Below are positions 6,150 to 49,540 of a DNA stretch of 63,096 nucleotides, piece after piece. How positions within the stretch are numbered: position 1 is the stretch's first letter; the number at the start of each line of letters is the position of its first letter. The notes below the pieces were generated by a model. It saw nothing but the letters and a program-made list of their open reading frames with translations, did no database searches and was not told the DNA's origin. Position numbers and translations under genes: made by a program. The stretch comes from a virus: the IMG/VR virus record IMGVR_UViG_3300008267_000043, positions 1 to 63,096 of that record; one strand, written 5' to 3'.

Positions 6150-9023
6150 ATGACATCACGGATTCCCTTTCTTTCCGCAGTACTTGCCGACGACGGCATT
6201 TATTGTGTGGTTGGGTTGAAGAAAGGTGCACCAAAACAAACGTTTGTAGAGACAGTTGAAGAAATTGATGGGGTAGTGGATGGGTTGATTGCACAGGGGT
6301 ACGATGCGTACTTCGGATGTGCCAAATATCTGAACGCCAATGAAGGGCGTACAGCACAAAACGCAAAATGGTTCAAGGCTTTCTGGCTTGACCTTGATTG
6401 CGGAGAATCAAAACCATACGCCACCCAAGCAGAAGCAATCGACGCACTACGGCAGTTTGTAAAGGACACTGGACTTCCAAGACCCATACTGGTCAACTCA
6501 GGGCGCGGTATACACGTGTACTGGGCATTGACCGAAGCAATCTTCTACAACGACTGGAAGCCAACAGCCGAAGCGTTCAAGAAGTTCTGTTCGGCATACA
6601 ACCTACATGCTGACCCAGCCGTTACTGCGGATGCGGCACGGATACTTCGTATCCCTGAAACCTTGAATTACAAGGACAGCCCTCCCAAGCCGGTGGATGT
6701 ACTGGTCACGTCACAACCTGTTGCATTTGAAAAGTTCCAAGCGATCATCGGTGCAGGTACTGAGGAAGTAGACCCAGCCCTGCCATTTGCCGCACCTGTA
6801 CACCGCCAGCCAATAGATGCCACCACCCGCGCCTTGATGGGCAACAGTGTGTCAAGGTTTGGCACGATCATGCGCAAAAGCGCAGATGGCAAAGGGTGCG
6901 CACAGCTTGTGCATATCTATCGCAACCAGAGCGAAATTGAAGAGCCTCTGTGGAGAGCTGGTCTTTCCATCGCGGCAAACTGTGAAGATGGTGAATTGGC
7001 CATCCACAAAATTTCTCATGCTCATGAGGAGTATGACCCCAGAGACACCAAGCAGAAGGCAGATGCCCTGATTGGCAAGCCCTACAAATGCGCAACGTTT
7101 TCTGGACTGAACCCAGAGTTGTGTGCTGACTGCCCCAACAAAGGCAAGATTACTTCACCAATTCAGATTGGTGCACAGATTGCGGCGGCTACCGCAGAAG
7201 ACAACATTGTGGTGATGCGCAACGCCACGCTTGAGGAAGAAATCACAGTTGAAATCCCCTCATACCCGTTCCCATATTTCCGTGGCAAGAACGGTGGCGT
7301 GTACCGCAAGGGCATCCCCTCAGACAAACCAAAGAAAAAAGATGATGAGGATGACGACGAAGACCGCGACATTCTTGTATATGAGTATGACTTCTACGTG
7401 GTCAAACGTTTGACCGACCCTGATGCTGGTGAGTCGCTTTGGATGCGCTTGCATATGCCCAAGGACGGCATACGTGAATTCTCTGCGCCACTGGCGAGTG
7501 TGCTGTCCAAGGATAAATTCCGTGAGGTGCTGGCATATCAGGGCGTGACTGCGTACAACAAAAAACTGGACAACATCATGGCGTATGTAACTAGGTGGGT
7601 GAGCGAATTGCAACAAGTATCTGAGGCTGAAAAGGCACGGCAACAATTTGGCTGGTGTGACAACGACACCAAGTTCATCGTGGGCAACCGTGAGATCACG
7701 GCGGCGGGTGTCAATTACAGCCCGTCATCAACGGCAACTGCCGAGCTGTCCACCATGTACCAGAAAAAGGGCAGTGTCAGCGAGTGGTCAAAAGTGGCCA
7801 ACAACTACGCCAAGAAAGGCAATGAGGTTCGGGCGTTCACCCTGTTTGCAGGGTTCGGGTCTGCACTGTTCAAGTTCACCAAACTCAGCGGCGCAATCAT
7901 CCACCTGACCAACAACGGTTCTGGTGTGGGTAAGACGACCATCCAGTACATGGTCAACAGCATCTGGGGGCGTCCAGTGGAGACCCTGCTGAATCAGGAG
8001 GACAAGTATCTGGCACGGATGCACCGTGTGTCTGTGCTTGGCAACCTGCCAGCAACCATTGACGAGTTGACCAACATGGCTGATGAAGAAGTCAGCAACA
8101 TGGCGTACAGCATTACGCACGGGCGGGGGCGCAACCGTATGCAATCCCAAACCAATGCTGAGCGGAGCAACACCCTGCGCTGGGCGTTGATCGCAATTAC
8201 ATCAGGTAACAAGAGCTTATACGACCAGTTATTCAACCTCAAGGACTTTCCAGAGGGTGAACTGATGCGGATACTGGAGTTCAACGTCTCCAAGAACGAC
8301 AGCATGTCCAAGGCTGAGTCTGACGAAGCGTTCAACGGCATGTACGAAAACTATGGCGTAGCTGGTGACGTGTTCATGCGTTACGTGCTGACAAACTTGC
8401 CAGAGGTCATCAACATGCTGGGCAAAATCCAGCGTAAGTTTGACAAGGCGGCAGGGATTACACAGCGTGAGCGGTTCTGGTCTGCCACAGCCGCATGTGC
8501 GATTACCGCAGGGCTCATCACCAAGAAACTGGGTCTGCACGACATTGACGTGGCCGAGGTTTACAACTGGGCGGTCAAGACGATTGGCTCCATGCGTGTT
8601 GAGGTACGTCCCGGTGTGGCTGGCCCTCTTGCCCAACTGGGCCTGTTCTTGAACGCCCACAACAACAATATGTTGATTGTGAAAAGCACGTCCGACAAAC
8701 GCTCAGGACTGTTTGAAACGCCAGTGCGGGAACCCCGTGGGGAACTGATTACTCGGTTTGAACCAGACACCAAGCACCTGTTCATCAGCGTCAAGGCACT
8801 GCGGGAGTGGTGCAGTGAGAACCAAGTGTCCTACAAAGCGTTGACGGATGACCTTCACAGCATGGGTGCCGGATTGGGCGTAATGAAGAAGTCCATGTCT
8901 CGGGGCTCTGATATGTCCACACCAGCAGTGAGTGCACTGGTCGTTGATTGCGCAAAAGCAACAGTGCTTGACCCCGAAGATAGTGCGCCATTACCTTCAC
9001 CATCTGATGACGATTTACAATAG
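6150..9023 (+). CDS. AEP-type primase with C-terminal helicase domain
   Basis: A 957-residue fusion. The N-terminal archaeo-eukaryotic primase domain shows the metal-binding DLD (81-83), RGIHVYWAL (His122) and a third block ADAARILRIPETLNYK. A small Cys cluster (YKCATF...CADCPNKG) lies near residues 310-330. The C-terminal half is a DUF927/SF3-like ATPase with Walker A GSGVGKTT (about 590-597) and Walker B-like TIDELTN (about 638). It should both prime and unwind at the phage fork. The stop overlaps the next small gene. Confidence 0.88.
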   Translation: MTSRIPFLSAVLADDGIYCVVGLKKGAPKQTFVETVEEIDGVVDGLIAQGYDAYFGCAKYLNANEGRTAQNAKWFKAFWLDLDCGESKPYATQAEAIDALRQFVKDTGLPRPILVNSGRGIHVYWALTEAIFYNDWKPTAEAFKKFCSAYNLHADPAVTADAARILRIPETLNYKDSPPKPVDVLVTSQPVAFEKFQAIIGAGTEEVDPALPFAAPVHRQPIDATTRALMGNSVSRFGTIMRKSADGKGCAQLVHIYRNQSEIEEPLWRAGLSIAANCEDGELAIHKISHAHEEYDPRDTKQKADALIGKPYKCATFSGLNPELCADCPNKGKITSPIQIGAQIAAATAEDNIVVMRNATLEEEITVEIPSYPFPYFRGKNGGVYRKGIPSDKPKKKDDEDDDEDRDILVYEYDFYVVKRLTDPDAGESLWMRLHMPKDGIREFSAPLASVLSKDKFREVLAYQGVTAYNKKLDNIMAYVTRWVSELQQVSEAEKARQQFGWCDNDTKFIVGNREITAAGVNYSPSSTATAELSTMYQKKGSVSEWSKVANNYAKKGNEVRAFTLFAGFGSALFKFTKLSGAIIHLTNNGSGVGKTTIQYMVNSIWGRPVETLLNQEDKYLARMHRVSVLGNLPATIDELTNMADEEVSNMAYSITHGRGRNRMQSQTNAERSNTLRWALIAITSGNKSLYDQLFNLKDFPEGELMRILEFNVSKNDSMSKAESDEAFNGMYENYGVAGDVFMRYVLTNLPEVINMLGKIQRKFDKAAGITQRERFWSATAACAITAGLITKKLGLHDIDVAEVYNWAVKTIGSMRVEVRPGVAGPLAQLGLFLNAHNNNMLIVKSTSDKRSGLFETPVREPRGELITRFEPDTKHLFISVKALREWCSENQVSYKALTDDLHSMGAGLGVMKKSMSRGSDMSTPAVSALVVDCAKATVLDPEDSAPLPSPSDDDLQ

Positions 9024-20336: not shown

Positions 20337-20663
20337 CTACACTTTGACGCGCAGAGGGTAGCTTGATGCGGCTCCACCAGAAGTGTCGTAGTACACATCG
20401 CCGGGGCGAAGGTTGGCAAAGTCGGCATCAGACGGCAGACTAATTTCCGACGCACCGGGTGTGTTTGGGTCAGGCTGCGCAAAGGTCATTGCCGATATAA
20501 CCACTGTTGTGCCCACACCCTGAGAAGCAAATAAGGCAGGAGATGCGTTGTTCAGTTGGGCAAAATACAAACGCATGGCGTTAATAAGCTGATCCATGTA
20601 CTGAGGATCGTATTCCATCGGCGGTGTAGGAAAGCGTGGTTGAGTTGCGTTTTTTAAACCCAT
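20337..20663 (-). CDS. Small virion-associated protein, unknown
   Basis: A 108-residue protein starting MGLKNATQPRFPTPP, with a helical central part (QYMDQLINAMRLYFAQLNN) and a beta-rich C-terminus ending in DVYYDTSGGAASSYPLRVKV. It sits 2 bp downstream of the stabilisation protein gene, so it is likely a tail or fibre-associated component. No enzymatic motif. Confidence 0.6.
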   Translation of the reverse strand: MGLKNATQPRFPTPPMEYDPQYMDQLINAMRLYFAQLNNASPALFASQGVGTTVVISAMTFAQPDPNTPGASEISLPSDADFANLRPGDVYYDTSGGAASSYPLRVKV

Positions 20664-20665
20664 GT

Positions 20666-22882
20666 TTATCTCCTGCCGTCAGGCCGTGTATCAATCCGAG
20701 GAACGCCCAACTGCCATGCAACACCAAGGTCATTGGACACAATCTTGAATGCCATCTGACGACCACGGATACGCACAAACACTTGTTCTGTGAACTGCTG
20801 CACTGTGTAATACCGCTGGTTCAGATAATTGTCCGCGCTAGTGACGGTTGGAGAATCTGACGCACCATAGTTTGTGCCGGGGAACTGACGGGGGCGCACC
20901 GTGAAATCTAATGACGGCGCAAGCGCATCTGACCCATCAAACGTCACATCGGGGATGATGCGGGTCACCAAACCAAAATTGTGGCCGTCACCAATGTCAA
21001 AGTCGGAAGACTGCACATACGCTGTGATTGGGGTTGGTGGGTCTGTTGTGCCATCATCGTTACCGTTCTCATGGTAAAGAAGTTGCCCGTTATAGCCCGC
21101 TGCCATAGGAGAAGGCCGCAGAGGGCTGTCCATCCAATATGTACGCGCCATAGTCCCGTAGTACCAAGTGCGCTCAAGGTGGTTGAAGATGACGTATTTG
21201 TCAATCGTTTCGGAATTGGCCGAGCAATAGAACCACCATACTTCGTTGTAGCCCTCATTGGTGCTGGCAAAGAATTGGAAAGACTGTGTGAGGTTGATGT
21301 CTTCATACACGTACTGGCGCAGGGCGCAAGGGAGCGTTTCCACACGACCTGAGTACATGTAAAACTTATCAGTGCCCATCCAATATGTGATGTTGTTCAC
21401 TGTTGCTACAGCATTTGGCCCCATGATGGAGATGTTGTCACCCATCAATTGGAAGCCCCACACATAGGGTGGGCCAAGATACTGCATAGAGTAAACGGCG
21501 GCATCAGTAAACACCAAAATCTCTTGGCGAGTTTGCATGGCCGCTATGATCTGTGACCCGCGACTGATGGTAAAGCTACCAGCCTGATTGGTTGCCTGTG
21601 GAAGCCATGTTTCAATGTCTTCTTGATTTGACCAACAGACAAACATAGGGTTTTGAACAGTGCTTCCAGCCACAGCATCGTTTGCACCAAAGGCAATGAC
21701 AAACCGTGATGAGTCAGACACCATCACAATATTGGCAACTGATGGGCAATAGGCGTCAACGGTCAAAGTACCCGCCTTGGTCGTTATAGTGGTGCTGGGG
21801 CCAAGGCGCTGCCCACGGTTAAATACATTTGGGTTGGCGGCGTTTGCCCAGTAATACAGCGGGCCACCACGAGGGTTGAACACCAAGTCCTCACCAAAGT
21901 TTGATTGACTCCAAAGACGCAACTGCTCGCCAATGCTGGTTACCGCCGCAGCTCCCCAACCAGTAAAGTCTGTTGATTGGACAACAGCCGCGCCATTTAC
22001 ATGGGTAGTGGCCGCGCCGGAGCCCGCGCCACTTACACCCCGAGTACAGCCAGTAAATGTAGTTGGGGAAATCCCTGTGTAAGTAATTGTTTCTTGGTCA
22101 ATCAAAATTGAGCCGGTAGCGGTGAACCCTGTGGTGGAAGTCACAGTCACCGTGGTGTTTGAATTGGACAACGTGCCGCCAGCCACAGCAGTGGTAGCTG
22201 TACCAAGAACAACGCCGCCCCAAGTACCTGCACCCCAGCCCACGTTTTGAGTGAAGGCTGCGTTACCTGTGGTGATCTGAAAAGTAAACGTTGCCGCGCC
22301 GGTTGTGCCAGCAGTCACGTTTGCTGTCACATACACCTGTATGGAAAATTGATTGGTGCTGATATATGTGACTTGAAATTCTGTATTTAAAGAAGCCAAC
22401 GGAATGCCGTTGACATCACTAGCCACGCCAGAGATTGTTACAAAGTCCCCAGTTTGAGCGCCATGCGCCGGTACGTCGCAAACGACAGTGACAAATCCGG
22501 AAGGGGGCGCAGTGTAAGCAGTTGTTGTAAACGCATTTGAAGCGACTGCTGTGCCGCTTGGGTTTCTCAGGGGGGTTATGTCATAAATATTGCCCCCGTT
22601 ACCATTTTGAATGTAGTACTTGAGGCTGGTGCCCAGCGCCAGCAGGTTGTAGCCAGACAGATTTAGCCAATTCCACATGGAACGACAAACACCCCAAAAC
22701 TCTCCCGTTGGGGGCGGCGCTAAATCAGTTGATGTACCTTGGTCTAAAACCCAACCCCCAATTTTTTCGGGGTAGCCAGAACGGAAACGCACTTTATCCG
22801 ATTCAAACCAACCGCCTTCGTTGGAAAGCGTTGTGCCTTCGCGGTTGATGCCGGGTCTAAATTGCAGTTTCTGTAATGGCAT
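20666..22882 (-). CDS. Tail tube/stabilisation protein (P22 gp10 / T7 gp12-like)
   Basis: A 738-residue beta-rich protein. The N-terminal signature FRPGINREGTTLSNEGGW...DKVRFRSGYPEKIGGW is that of the large tail-hub/stabilisation proteins of podoviruses. A Gly/Thr/Ser-rich inserted domain lies about residues 120-300, followed by strands rich in aromatic residues as in beta-propellers. It would form the tail nozzle below the adaptor rings. The neighbouring peptidase and lysis genes lie just upstream. Confidence 0.8.
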   Translation of the reverse strand: MPLQKLQFRPGINREGTTLSNEGGWFESDKVRFRSGYPEKIGGWVLDQGTSTDLAPPPTGEFWGVCRSMWNWLNLSGYNLLALGTSLKYYIQNGNGGNIYDITPLRNPSGTAVASNAFTTTAYTAPPSGFVTVVCDVPAHGAQTGDFVTISGVASDVNGIPLASLNTEFQVTYISTNQFSIQVYVTANVTAGTTGAATFTFQITTGNAAFTQNVGWGAGTWGGVVLGTATTAVAGGTLSNSNTTVTVTSTTGFTATGSILIDQETITYTGISPTTFTGCTRGVSGAGSGAATTHVNGAAVVQSTDFTGWGAAAVTSIGEQLRLWSQSNFGEDLVFNPRGGPLYYWANAANPNVFNRGQRLGPSTTITTKAGTLTVDAYCPSVANIVMVSDSSRFVIAFGANDAVAGSTVQNPMFVCWSNQEDIETWLPQATNQAGSFTISRGSQIIAAMQTRQEILVFTDAAVYSMQYLGPPYVWGFQLMGDNISIMGPNAVATVNNITYWMGTDKFYMYSGRVETLPCALRQYVYEDINLTQSFQFFASTNEGYNEVWWFYCSANSETIDKYVIFNHLERTWYYGTMARTYWMDSPLRPSPMAAGYNGQLLYHENGNDDGTTDPPTPITAYVQSSDFDIGDGHNFGLVTRIIPDVTFDGSDALAPSLDFTVRPRQFPGTNYGASDSPTVTSADNYLNQRYYTVQQFTEQVFVRIRGRQMAFKIVSNDLGVAWQLGVPRIDTRPDGRR

Positions 22883-46460: not shown

Positions 46461-46951
46461 AAGCACCGAGGAAACGGGAATGGGTCGAAATGTACACGAA
46501 AAATATATACCGTGCAACAAAGGAGGTAGGGACTCCTAGCCGGGGGGTGTTCTGGGATTGAATACTTAAAGCGCCCGGCTGTAAACTTAAAAGGGGGGAG
46601 GGGGGCTACAACATCTTGTGGTGTGTTGAAACTACATTCGTTAGCGCCTAACTGTGTGGCGTTAAGGTGGCTCAACCTGACCCTACCTGAAATAAGCTGA
46701 CACGAAACTTACTGAGATTCCAAAACTTGGTGGCGTAATGAGCATTTTCGAGTAGTAGTACCTGCCGATGGTACCTAATCCTATATCTGGGGGGTGGGGG
46801 TCGCTGGGGCCGCTCTCTGTGGAAACTTTCGTACGGTACGAAAATGTAACGTCTTAGCTATCCCGTGCAAAGCCCTGTAATTTGTGATACAGTATAGGCA
46901 TTGGCTCAGGGATTGGCTCTGAGGCAATAAGCCAAACGAAAGGAATTCATC
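46461..46951. other. Divergent intergenic control region
   Basis: 491 bp between the late (minus) and early (plus) arms, with no convincing gene. It holds GCCGGG/CCCGGC arms near 46537-46577, an AT-rich ATATATA stretch near 46501-46508 that may be a -10 for the late arm, palindrome copy 1 (46827-46843), and a directly repeated ATTGGCTC just before the first early gene. Promoters must lie here but no -35/-10 pair near consensus is visible, so a phage-modified or activated polymerase is possible. Confidence 0.5.
46827..46843. promoter_or_regulatory. 17-bp palindrome TTTCGTAC-G-GTACGAAA, copy 1
   Basis: First of nine copies of TTTCGTAC-N-GTACGAAA, 109 bp upstream of the first early gene. A perfect inverted repeat with a single central base is typical of a site for a dimeric DNA-binding protein. 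Confidence 0.8.
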
Positions 46952-47500
46952 ATGGCTAAAGCAAAACTCTCTATCGTTGCAACCACTGAAACAACTACTT
47001 TGGACAATGCCTCTTTGGCACGTTCAATAGGTGCATCCATCGGCGAAATGAATGCCTTGGAAAACAAGGCGGCACAAATCAAAGCCGAGGCGAATAAGTC
47101 AATTCAGGCTTTGCATAAAAACAAAGTAGTAATTGGCACGTACCGGAAAGACGGCACGGGTTGTTTGGTTGCCACGGCATTTGTTGACGGGTGCACGTCA
47201 AAAGGTATTTCACCAAGCACGGCACAAAAGACTTATTTGCCCACGTTCAAAGCCCACGTTGCATCGGGCAAGGAAGTGATTGATTGGAATAGTCAACGGG
47301 CAAAGAACAAGGGCACCGGCGGCAAAGCCAAAGCCAAAAAAGAATTGGCCGATAAATTGGCCACGTGCTATCGGGATGCTGAATTCGCTGAATTCATCGC
47401 TGATTTGCAAGCATCTTATGACAATGACGAAGGCGATTTGATAACGTGCATCGAATCCTACTTGGAAATGAACGGCATCAAAACCAAAACCGCTGAGTAA
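46952..47500 (+). CDS. First early protein, unknown, basic centre
   Basis: A 182-residue protein with a Thr/Ser-rich N-terminus, a helical part (IGEMNALENKAAQIKAEANK), a Lys/Gly-rich stretch (KNKGTGGKAKAKKELADKL) and an acidic helical end. It has a good ribosome binding site (AAAGGAA) and its own terminator. A monocistronic gene behind the divergent control region and a palindrome copy may be a regulator or a host-takeover protein; no family recognised. Confidence 0.75.
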   Translation: MAKAKLSIVATTETTTLDNASLARSIGASIGEMNALENKAAQIKAEANKSIQALHKNKVVIGTYRKDGTGCLVATAFVDGCTSKGISPSTAQKTYLPTFKAHVASGKEVIDWNSQRAKNKGTGGKAKAKKELADKLATCYRDAEFAEFIADLQASYDNDEGDLITCIESYLEMNGIKTKTAE

Positions 47501-47512
47501 GTAAAAACCCTA

Positions 47513-47539
47513 AGCCCTGCGAAAGCAGGGCTTTTTTTT
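47513..47539 (+). terminator. Terminator of first early gene
   Basis: The stem AGCCCTGC (47513-47520) / GCAGGGCT (47525-47532) with loop GAAA is followed by eight T. It ends the transcript of the gene at 46952-47500. Confidence 0.92.
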
Positions 47540-47624
47540 CGCCCAAAATTTCCCGCATCAACTACATGCCACGGAATGAGCTTGTGCCTAATCTAATCAC
47601 ACCACAACAAGTTATTTCTAAGAT

Positions 47625-47651
47625 ACCTGTTCCCTCTACGTTGGCCGCACT
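47625..47651 (+). repeat. 27-bp direct repeat, copy 1
   Basis: Identical to 47743-47769. The two copies flank palindrome copy 2. The first 10 bases of this copy (plus the 5 before it) occur again in inverted orientation at 54277-54291, just upstream of another early gene. Confidence 0.85.
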
Positions 47652-47710
47652 GCCCTGCACGCCGTTACACCACGTTGCGTTACAGATGCTATACGTTATT
47701 ACGTCCTGCA

Positions 47711-47729
47711 CTTTCGTACTGTACGAAAG
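47711..47729. promoter_or_regulatory. 19-bp palindrome, copy 2 (central T)
   Basis: CTTTCGTAC-T-GTACGAAAG, a perfect 9-bp half-site palindrome lying between the two 27-bp direct repeats in the large non-coding region. The only copy with a central T on the plus strand. Confidence 0.85.
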
Positions 47730-47742
47730 TCAAACCCCCGAA

Positions 47743-47769
47743 ACCTGTTCCCTCTACGTTGGCCGCACT
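47743..47769 (+). repeat. 27-bp direct repeat, copy 2
   Basis: Identical to 47625-47651, 118 bp downstream of it. Palindrome copy 3 follows 18 bp later. No ORF of quality spans it. Confidence 0.85.
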
Positions 47770-47786
47770 ATGCGTGGGAAGTAGCA

Positions 47787-47805
47787 CTTTCGTACCGTAC
47801 GAAAG
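47787..47805. promoter_or_regulatory. 19-bp palindrome, copy 3
   Basis: CTTTCGTAC-C-GTACGAAAG, 20 bp before the left arm of the long inverted repeat at the candidate origin. Confidence 0.85.
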
Positions 47806-47824
47806 CCTTTTTGATTGTCAACCT

Positions 47825-48169
47825 GTTATATTGTCTATTTTGTCCAGCAATATTCTTGCCACAAGAATAAAACAAACCCCAATAGGCATGGGACTTTCCA
47901 AGGGAAAAGGTATGTATTATTCTATTATTCTATAAAATATATATATACACCCCCATTTTATTTTTTCTTTTTGTACTTATCCACAGGGCGCATGTTCTTT
48001 TTTATTTTTTCTTGGTCTCGTTCTCGCTCGTCCGTTTTTCTCTCTCACATCCCCATTTTTCGAGAATAAAGGAATATTACAAGAAAAATCACCTCGCAAC
48101 CCGCACCAATCCTCATCTTTCTATTATACTTATGGCAGGAATATTGCTGAACAAAATAGACAATATAAC
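47825..48169. other. Candidate replication origin, bounded by inverted repeats
   Basis: A 345-bp non-coding segment. The outer 48 bp on each side (47825-47872 and 48122-48169) are inverted copies matching at 43 positions. Between them are an AT-rich tract (47909-47950, including ATATATATATA), pyrimidine-rich runs, and a perfect DnaA box TTATCCACA (47977-47985). Two palindromes and two direct repeats stand just to the left. This set of features is what plasmid and phage origins show. A small non-coding mobile element with terminal inverted repeats is the alternative. Confidence 0.5.
47977..47985 (+). promoter_or_regulatory. Consensus DnaA box
   Basis: TTATCCACA, the exact high-affinity E. coli DnaA site, next to the AT-rich tract inside the inverted-repeat segment. 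A single 9-mer could occur by chance, but its context favours function. Confidence 0.5.
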
Positions 48170-48217
48170 TTCCTAAACTCTCAACACACCCAACCAACCA
48201 AAAGGAGAAACCCAACC

Positions 48218-48622
48218 ATGACCAAACAAACCCCATCAACACTTCCATATCTCTCTGACTACGCACGTGGCAAACTACTCACCGAGGCTGGCATCAAGAA
48301 CGCCAAGGGACTGCACTACCACCGACTGCGGAACTCCAAACCAAACAGCGACCCCAACAACAAACCCACCACACGAACCACCAGCACCACCAAGCGACCT
48401 GTGAAGTGCATACAGACTGGCGAAGTGTTTGAGTCCATCCACGCATGTGCCCGAGCACACGACCTCACACCATCCAACCTATGCGCTCACCTCAAGGGCA
48501 AACTGTATGCGGTGAAGAAGCGTCAGTACAAGTACACCACGGACAGCCAGCTCAAGCTACATCAGAAACGGAATAAAACACCAGCCAACACCACACAGCT
48601 ACAACTTGACAAGAACATGTAA
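48218..48622 (+). CDS. NUMOD/IENR1-like modular DNA-binding protein
   Basis: A 134-residue protein with a Thr/Asn/Lys linker in the middle and a C-terminal domain RPVKCIQTGEVFESIHACAR followed by AHDLTPSNLCAHLKGKLYAV. That pattern (TGe-x-F-x-S...A...L-x-x-S-x-L-x-x-H-L-x-G-K) is a NUMOD-type HTH repeat normally attached to homing endonucleases. No nuclease domain is present here, so it may be a free DNA-binding module. It has a strong site AAAAGGAGAA and stands directly right of the candidate origin. Confidence 0.7.
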   Translation: MTKQTPSTLPYLSDYARGKLLTEAGIKNAKGLHYHRLRNSKPNSDPNNKPTTRTTSTTKRPVKCIQTGEVFESIHACARAHDLTPSNLCAHLKGKLYAVKKRQYKYTTDSQLKLHQKRNKTPANTTQLQLDKNM

Positions 48623-48634
48623 ATCCCCTATAAT
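48606..48634 (+). promoter_or_regulatory. Perfect-consensus sigma70 promoter
   Basis: TTGACA (48606-48611), 17-bp spacer, TATAAT (48629-48634): the full consensus. It overlaps the end of the NUMOD-like gene. Palindrome copy 4 begins 42 bp beyond the -10, so about 36 bp downstream of the expected start of transcription. Confidence 0.88.
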
Positions 48635-48676
48635 TAAGGCTCATTCGGAATAAATCTGTTTTGAATGACTCGGCAA

Positions 48677-48695
48677 CTTTCGTACGGTACGAAAG
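48677..48695. promoter_or_regulatory. 19-bp palindrome, copy 4, downstream of promoter
   Basis: CTTTCGTAC-G-GTACGAAAG in the 5' leader of the transcript from the 48606 promoter. The same promoter-to-palindrome distance is seen at copy 6. A bound protein would act as a roadblock, or the transcript could form a 7-bp hairpin. Confidence 0.85.
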
Positions 48696-48730
48696 CCTGA
48701 GAAACAAGGTCAAATGAAAAGGGATACATC

Positions 48731-48904
48731 ATGAAACTGACCAAGCAACAACGTGGTGCGCTCAAGCGCAAGTGGGAACGGGACAACCAAGGTATGAGTT
48801 ACCTGCAATTCAGGCGCACAGTCGTGCAGGGGTTCGACTGCATCATGGTGCCGTGGTGTGGGATGTGGCTCGGTATTGAGCTGGACGGATACACACATTC
48901 ATAA
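48731..48904 (+). CDS. Small basic protein (57 aa)
   Basis: MKLTKQQRGALKRKWERDNQ... ending GMWLGIELDGYTHS, with AAAAGGGA upstream of the ATG. It is the first gene behind the consensus promoter and palindrome copy 4. The N-terminal K-L-T-x-x-Q-R-x-A-L-x-R-K-W pattern recurs in small phage proteins as I recall. Function unknown. Confidence 0.65.
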   Translation: MKLTKQQRGALKRKWERDNQGMSYLQFRRTVVQGFDCIMVPWCGMWLGIELDGYTHS

Positions 48905-48915
48905 GGGGTTACAAC

Positions 48916-49119
48916 ATGTTGACAAACGAATTCGACACAGCGGATGGCAAGTACACCATCAAGAGCTACGGCAATGGCTGGGCGTATGAGGTGGTGGATA
49001 TTGGGACAGGTGAATCGTTGTGGTTTCAAGACCATGCCGCAAGCCAGTTGCAAACGGATACCAACGACTTTGAGGACACCTGCACCATCGACCAATACTT
49101 TGAATGTTTGGAGGGCTGA
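48916..49119 (+). CDS. Small acidic protein, unknown
   Basis: A 67-residue protein (MLTNEFDTADGKYTIKSYGN...TIDQYFECLEG) 11 bp after the previous gene. Two or three beta strands then an acidic helix. Anti-host small proteins often look like this, but no family is recognised. Confidence 0.6.
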   Translation: MLTNEFDTADGKYTIKSYGNGWAYEVVDIGTGESLWFQDHAASQLQTDTNDFEDTCTIDQYFECLEG

Positions 49120-49121
49120 CC

Positions 49122-49373
49122 ATGAAACTCAAATTTGAAATGACGGACACGTTCGCAGGGGAAGCCAACTATTCATGGGTCAAACGTGGTGAGGCCATCG
49201 TGCCTGACTCTGCCACTGACCTGAGCATCGTGCACAAGGCCAAGAAATGGGCTGGCCTGAAAGGTGTACGCACCATCACTGAGAAGTATGGTGACTTCAT
49301 GGCCATACGTTGTATCGGTGCATGTTTGGTGGTGTTTATCAACTTTGACTATGAGAATGATTGGAGGGAATGA
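49122..49373 (+). CDS. Small protein, unknown
   Basis: An 83-residue protein starting MKLKFEMTDTFAGEANYSWV, with VRTITEKYGDFMAIRCIGAC in the second half. The start is ATG 49122 behind GGAGGG rather than the longer frame upstream. The Y-S-W-V-x-R-G block recurs in small phage early proteins. Function unknown. Confidence 0.65.
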   Translation: MKLKFEMTDTFAGEANYSWVKRGEAIVPDSATDLSIVHKAKKWAGLKGVRTITEKYGDFMAIRCIGACLVVFINFDYENDWRE

Positions 49374-49375
49374 GT

Positions 49376-49540
49376 ATGTATAGCTTTGAATGTTTTTGGA
49401 AGATGAAGCGCATGACTGTGCAAGCGGCAACAAGTTATGACGCACAACGCAAGGCCGCACTGCTGTGGGGTATCGGACGCAGGTCATGGGATGTGACTGT
49501 GATGCGAGCTGATGTTGGGCACGATGGGGCTGTGCTGTGA
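49376..49540 (+). CDS. Small protein (54 aa), unknown
   Basis: MYSFECFWKMKRMTVQAATS... with DAQRKAALLWGIGRRSWDV. It follows the previous stop by 2 bp, is preceded by TGGAGGGAATG, and overlaps the next start by 4 bp. Coupling on both sides supports it. Confidence 0.6.
   Translation: MYSFECFWKMKRMTVQAATSYDAQRKAALLWGIGRRSWDVTVMRADVGHDGAVL

Follow-up and report, generated by a model that had tools for sequence, protein, structure and literature searches.

A candidate replication origin with mirror-image iterons, and its putative primase-helicase initiator, in a group of uncultured 60-74 kb phages

Background

To our knowledge, few environmental phages have a known replication origin. At the ori of phage lambda, where the O protein is the initiator, iterons stand beside an AT-rich tract, on one side of it and inside the initiator gene, and the initiator is no helicase. 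The alpha protein of phage P4 is a fused primase-helicase acting at iterons, and two separate elements, ori and crr, are involved. The origins of phage-inducible chromosomal islands (PICIs) consist of an AT-rich region flanked by two sets of iterons (PMC6092414). SaPI Rep recognises its iterons through its C-terminal domain, and SaPIbov1 Rep is related to Cch, a DUF927 protein; the site of Cch2 has three iterons, AAGTG, beside its gene (PMC7581432).

Here we describe a locus in the virus record IMGVR_UViG_3300008267_000043. The whole record, 63,096 nt, was analysed and is referred to as the window. A 61-bp repeat at both of its ends would fit a closed, 63,035-bp circle.

Results

The locus is framed by two inverted arms of 52 nt each, detected by a repeat search, at 47825-47876 (plus strand) and 48118-48169 (minus strand), with 241 nt between them. 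The right arm is 88% complementary to the left, which bears out the arms of 48 bp with 43 matches described in an earlier note on this DNA, and a search across the window genome revealed no further arm copies. The core proper, in which iterons in mirror symmetry surround an AT-rich tract, occupies 47834-48160 (plus strand). It belongs to an alignment of fifteen cores, 309-333 bp long, from fifteen phages, and it matches R1, a sequence-only profile built with the window core included, with 161 bits (E 7e-49).

The AT-rich tract that the earlier note had seen in this segment is real: no other 40 bp of the genome are as rich in AT as 47905-47944 (0.88), and in a scan of duplex stability the weakest 50-bp segment is 47915-47964 (49.8 against a mean of 72.0 kcal/mol). 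Its central part, TATAAAATATATATATACACCCCC (47931-47954), can be aligned in all 15 cores and is the likely melting site, or DUE. This weakest duplex sits just inside the left iteron doublet. Further, the 80-bp maximum of AT content of the whole genome falls inside the core, 33-75 bp left of its midpoint, in 13 of 13 genomes.

Up to ten iterons of the form RGAAY(W)3R, scanned for with the pattern GAA[TC][AT]3, flank the AT-rich tract in mirror order. Complete arrays have a fixed spacing of 10, 10, 57 and 8 on one side and 8, 57, 10 and 10 on the other; in the core coordinates of L003, for example, the array reads -12 -22 +32, -89 -97, AT tract, variable centre, +233 +241, -298 +308 +318. In the window two of the ten sites are degenerate, which leaves eight sites with three exact mirror pairs (P=0.0016). 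The pairs, located by the pattern scan and the mirror test, are AGAATATTGC (47849-47855, minus) with GGAATATTGC (48139-48145, plus), AGAATAATAC (47916-47922, minus) with GGAATATTAC (48072-48078, plus), and AGAATAATAG (47924-47930, minus) with AGAATAAAGG (48064-48070, plus). The remaining two sites are AGAATAAAAC (47865-47871, plus), whose mirror place on the right, around 48123-48129, is degenerate, and the outer iteron TGAACAAAAT (48149-48155, plus), whose mirror place on the left, 47839-47845, is degenerate as well. Among 20 cores, L003, L011, L016, L021 and L022 have five exact mirror pairs on a single axis (P<=0.0002 each), four others have four, the window and L014 have three and the other nine have two or fewer; as the phages share ancestry, the tests do not count as independent.

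Both halves of the core match R1 in antisense too, at mirror places, and R1 also matches itself when reverse-complemented. The arms covary across phages: an arm pairs better with its own partner than with one swapped between phages (0.74 vs 0.64, 0/5000) and covariation is 0.219 vs 0.141 (0/500), both values being inflated by relatedness. In L020 and L165 the arm sequence is different, and it has changed on both sides.

A gene for a 182-aa protein, upstream of the core, has homologues in IMG/VR contigs. Where the contig extends far enough, these are followed by a non-coding region built in the same way: terminator, direct repeats (in most), palindromes and then the core. Each of the 12 long relatives examined, of 50-74 kb, has the core in a single copy and in synteny, and more than 12 fragments have it too. 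Gene order in the 12 long genomes is terL, terS, the 182-aa gene, core, a MoxR-type ATPase, DNA polymerase A and the primase-helicase. To the left of the core, terL lies at -2.8 to -4.1 kb, terS at -1.8 to -3.0 kb and, in 11 of the 12, the 182-aa gene at -0.8 kb; to the right, the MoxR ATPase lies at +2.4 to +5 kb and polA at +8 to +16 kb.

When 20 contigs were chosen by the primase-helicase gene only, 14 had the core, among them every one of the eight longer than 60 kb and one weak match of 30 bits, in G024; all of this co-occurrence lies within one related group, so the terminase and other genes co-occur with the core as well. As a control, R1 was run against 81 mostly unrelated viral loci, in which two known cores scored 172-201 bits and everything else stayed below 18 bits, except the antisense halves of those two cores. 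A 14-mer pattern scan returned mostly chance matches and two true cores (L089, L115). Against five named phages with a related terminase or primase, of which 45-62 kb each were examined, R1 gave no match; for one of these, Pseudomonas phage Rollin, whose primase is 31% identical, 47 kb were examined and nothing recognisable as a core was found there. A blastn search of the window region against named phages returned nothing, and with the L021 region it gave short matches only, 19 among the 20 matches listed falling at its terminator end. Taken together, the core is very probably where this group of uncultured phages starts DNA copying.

Discussion

In our opinion, the segment is probably the main origin of the phage, and it would be opened by the phage's own primase-helicase at the iterons. 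This protein of 957 aa (6150-9023, plus strand) has a PrimPol-like N-terminus, a DUF927 helicase (E 3e-27) and a winged-helix-like C-terminus, and co-occurs with the core. Its residues 539-807 match the SCCmec helicase Cch (5dgk, E 1.5e-5). The full-length AlphaFold model is too poor (pLDDT 49.7), and therefore only a C-terminal model was used in the fold search; the confidence of that model is modest (pLDDT 64, with 75-88 across much of the C-terminal domain). Against 350,542 PDB chains its top Foldseek matches were 5dgk again (E 2.7e-3) and SaPIbov1 Rep (8tch, E 0.04; VIA Z 6.2), at E-values of only 3e-3 to 0.05. Given these likenesses, it is most likely that the primase-helicase, rather than host DnaA, opens the origin, and we lean with reasonable confidence towards this protein being itself the initiator. 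A clade with a primase 54-57% identical is represented by a single example, G024, which has a similar layout with another iteron word, GAACTTTA; there the C-terminal part of the primase is 44% identical, below the whole protein. When the GAACTTTA pattern was sought in further contigs of the 54% clade, G024 remained the only match.

The model is patterned on the Rep initiators of SaPIs and PICIs. The C-terminal domain of the primase-helicase would bind the RGAAY(W)3R (GAATAATA) iterons, and the mirror-image iteron sets would place one helicase assembly on either side. The AT-rich tract would then melt, two helicases would be loaded pointing outwards, the PrimPol-like domain would lay the first primers, and the family A DNA polymerase of the phage would extend them. 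We infer that such an origin is most likely bidirectional.

A different starter may be imagined to use the same iterons: host DnaA, host RNA polymerase working from a nearby promoter, or another phage protein. We consider this unlikely, albeit the strongest of the competing explanations. There is one exact DnaA box, TTATCCACA, at 47977-47985; yet it recurs in none of the other 14 cores, so that it is exact in 1 of 15, and the window genome has 13 boxes with up to one mismatch where 13.4 are expected by chance. With no conserved cluster of boxes, a DnaA-dependent, oriC-like origin was rejected. The promoter, a perfect sigma-70-type TTGACA-17-TATAAT at 48606-48634 (plus strand) reading into the early genes, lies some 450 bp to the right of the core, and a related one was found on that side in 12 of the 14 first sequences examined; it is, however, outside the iteron array, and the primase resembles self-loading initiators. 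The earlier note had proposed a replication origin with a DnaA box. We retain its origin, to which the conserved, syntenic position, the anatomy, the mirror symmetry of the iterons, the AT maximum, the co-occurrence of the primase-helicase and the likeness of that protein to SaPI/SCCmec-type initiators all point, and we give up its DnaA part. The same note had looked to GC skew as a check. The cumulative minimum does lie where predicted, 0.1-1.9 kb from the core in 13 of 13 genomes and usually on the promoter side, but this is also where the genes switch direction, and the skew therefore agrees with an origin without proving one.

Could the core instead be a regulatory region, that is, an enhancer or operator hub of the early promoter with no origin in it? 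Its placement is suggestive, since it lies between that promoter and the intrinsic terminator of the upstream gene (47512-47533, plus strand), with operator palindromes close by. We nevertheless judge this quite improbable: the operators belong to another sequence family, whose members extend over several kilobases, and an enhancer that is mirror-symmetric over 330 bp about the genome's weakest duplex would be unusual. The palindrome CTTTCGTACNGTACGAAAG has nine copies over 46.8-54.8 kb, against 0.02 expected, which start at 46826, 47711, 47787, 48677, 49955, 51007, 51904, 53069 and 54803; nearest to the left of the core are those at 47711-47729 and 47787-47805, the latter reading CTTTCGTACCGTACGAAAG. 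Direct repeats and palindromes had earlier been reported immediately left of the segment. Both are present, the repeats as 30-bp copies (97%), while the palindromes turn out to be part of the nine-member family. They were rejected as part of the origin and are taken here for a regulatory family of their own, operator-like, of which nearly every genome uses a single dialect. The direct repeats, from the repeat search, stand at 47622-47651 (containing ACCTGTTCCCTCTACGTTGGCCGCACT) and 47740-47769, both on the plus strand; related copies occupy the same place in relatives and are in most of the type ACCTGTTCCCT..GTTGGCCG. The claim that this is the largest non-coding region of the genome holds for 47501-48217 (717 bp) if short overlapping ORFs are spurious; a mechanical ORF call splits the region.

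Some features of the surroundings deserve attention in their own right. Palindromes of the form TTTC[GTAC/ATAC/CCAC]N[..]GAAA, which span 46826-54821 in the window, were counted in genomes of the G001-G016 series: of 13 genomes, 12 have between 4 and 13 exact copies each and G013 has none; 11 genomes have a single dialect and G011 has two. Such palindromes resemble the operators of a phage regulator with changing specificity. The gene of the 182-aa protein, whose function is unknown (46952-47500, plus strand), lies upstream of the core, on the same side in 12 of 12 long relatives, and has palindromes on both its sides; that its product is the regulator which binds them is speculation. Right of the right arm is an optional neighbour, a gene (48218-48622, plus strand) whose 134-aa product has a region weakly resembling NUMOD/homing endonucleases, and which has a look-alike ORF in L012 (from 11187) and is absent in several relatives. 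In nine relatives (L003, L011, L013, L016, L018, L020, L021, L022 and L165) the early promoter is followed by a conserved non-coding stretch of 650-840 nt, for instance L011:11469-12310 and L165:6538-7200, which is absent from the window. It contains GCTCTTTAACAA, which resembles boxA, and some helices in it show compensatory changes; Rfam searches with three phages (L001 = L011, L003, L005 = L020) gave matches far below the cut-offs only; we regard it as a candidate for a new large phage RNA.

That the core is a pac/cos site, at which the terminase would begin packaging, is very improbable. The proximity of terS, about 1.8 kb away in most relatives, invites the idea, but a gene with its own terminator lies in between, and neither the AT maximum of a genome nor a mirror array of iterons is expected at such sites. 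Moreover, in phages whose TerL is 47-57% identical (DSL-LC04, 023Pt_psg01, MinM2 and HTVC027P) the core was not found in the 45-62 kb examined of each.

A mobile element or a structured RNA, which the long inverted arms might call to mind, has practically no claim left: an inverted-repeat element (MITE) was rejected on the single copy and the fixed locus in all long relatives examined, and an RNA on the absence of any Rfam match and a negligible consensus fold (-9.9 kcal/mol, 344 columns). The earlier note had set beforehand, as the observation that would speak against an origin, the finding of the same arms as mobile elements elsewhere; with one copy per genome at a constant locus, the origin reading is unrefuted.

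Comparison with known systems

Comparative anatomy yields a candidate origin of 330 bp, points to the bases in it that should matter and puts a name to the candidate initiator, which makes the proposal directly testable by a plasmid assay. A more general form of it, for which we see about even chances, is that this group of 60-74 kb uncultured phages has a mirror-symmetric origin of PICI layout with a fused PrimPol-DUF927 initiator, and that iteron words and initiator co-evolve as matched pairs. A satellite-type origin in large phages would bear on the source of the replication module of the satellites.

In DSL-LC04 (OR003939), which carries another primase, there is an inverted pair of 36 nt (83%) at 20562-20597/20729-20764, in the non-coding stretch 20475-21117 near terS. 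R1 does not match this pair, which is possibly an analogous origin of different sequence.

With lambda the core shares iterons next to an AT-rich tract, although those of lambda are one-sided and within the initiator gene. The likeness to P4 alpha would lie in a fused primase-helicase at iterons. In the SCCmec system, the DUF927 helicase Cch is, among relatives of solved structure, the one nearest to the helicase part of the phage protein; no mirror array is described for Cch/Cch2. At the origins of SaPIs and PICIs (SaPIbov1, E. coli PICIs) two iteron sets likewise flank an AT-rich region, and the initiator (Rep or Pri-Rep) has primase/helicase functions, a C-terminal origin-binding domain and a DUF927-type helicase, features to which those of the putative phage initiator would correspond. 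A PICI origin adjoins rep, immediately 3' of the initiator gene, whereas the phage primase gene is some 20 kb off (17-23 kb to the right of the core in 12 of 12 relatives); we therefore say that the core would work like an origin of SaPI/PICI type and do not class it as a member. Further, in contrast to SaPIs and PICIs, the phage iteron sets are mirror images with fixed spacing and the sequence RGAAY(W)3R, and the replicon is a whole phage of 60-74 kb.
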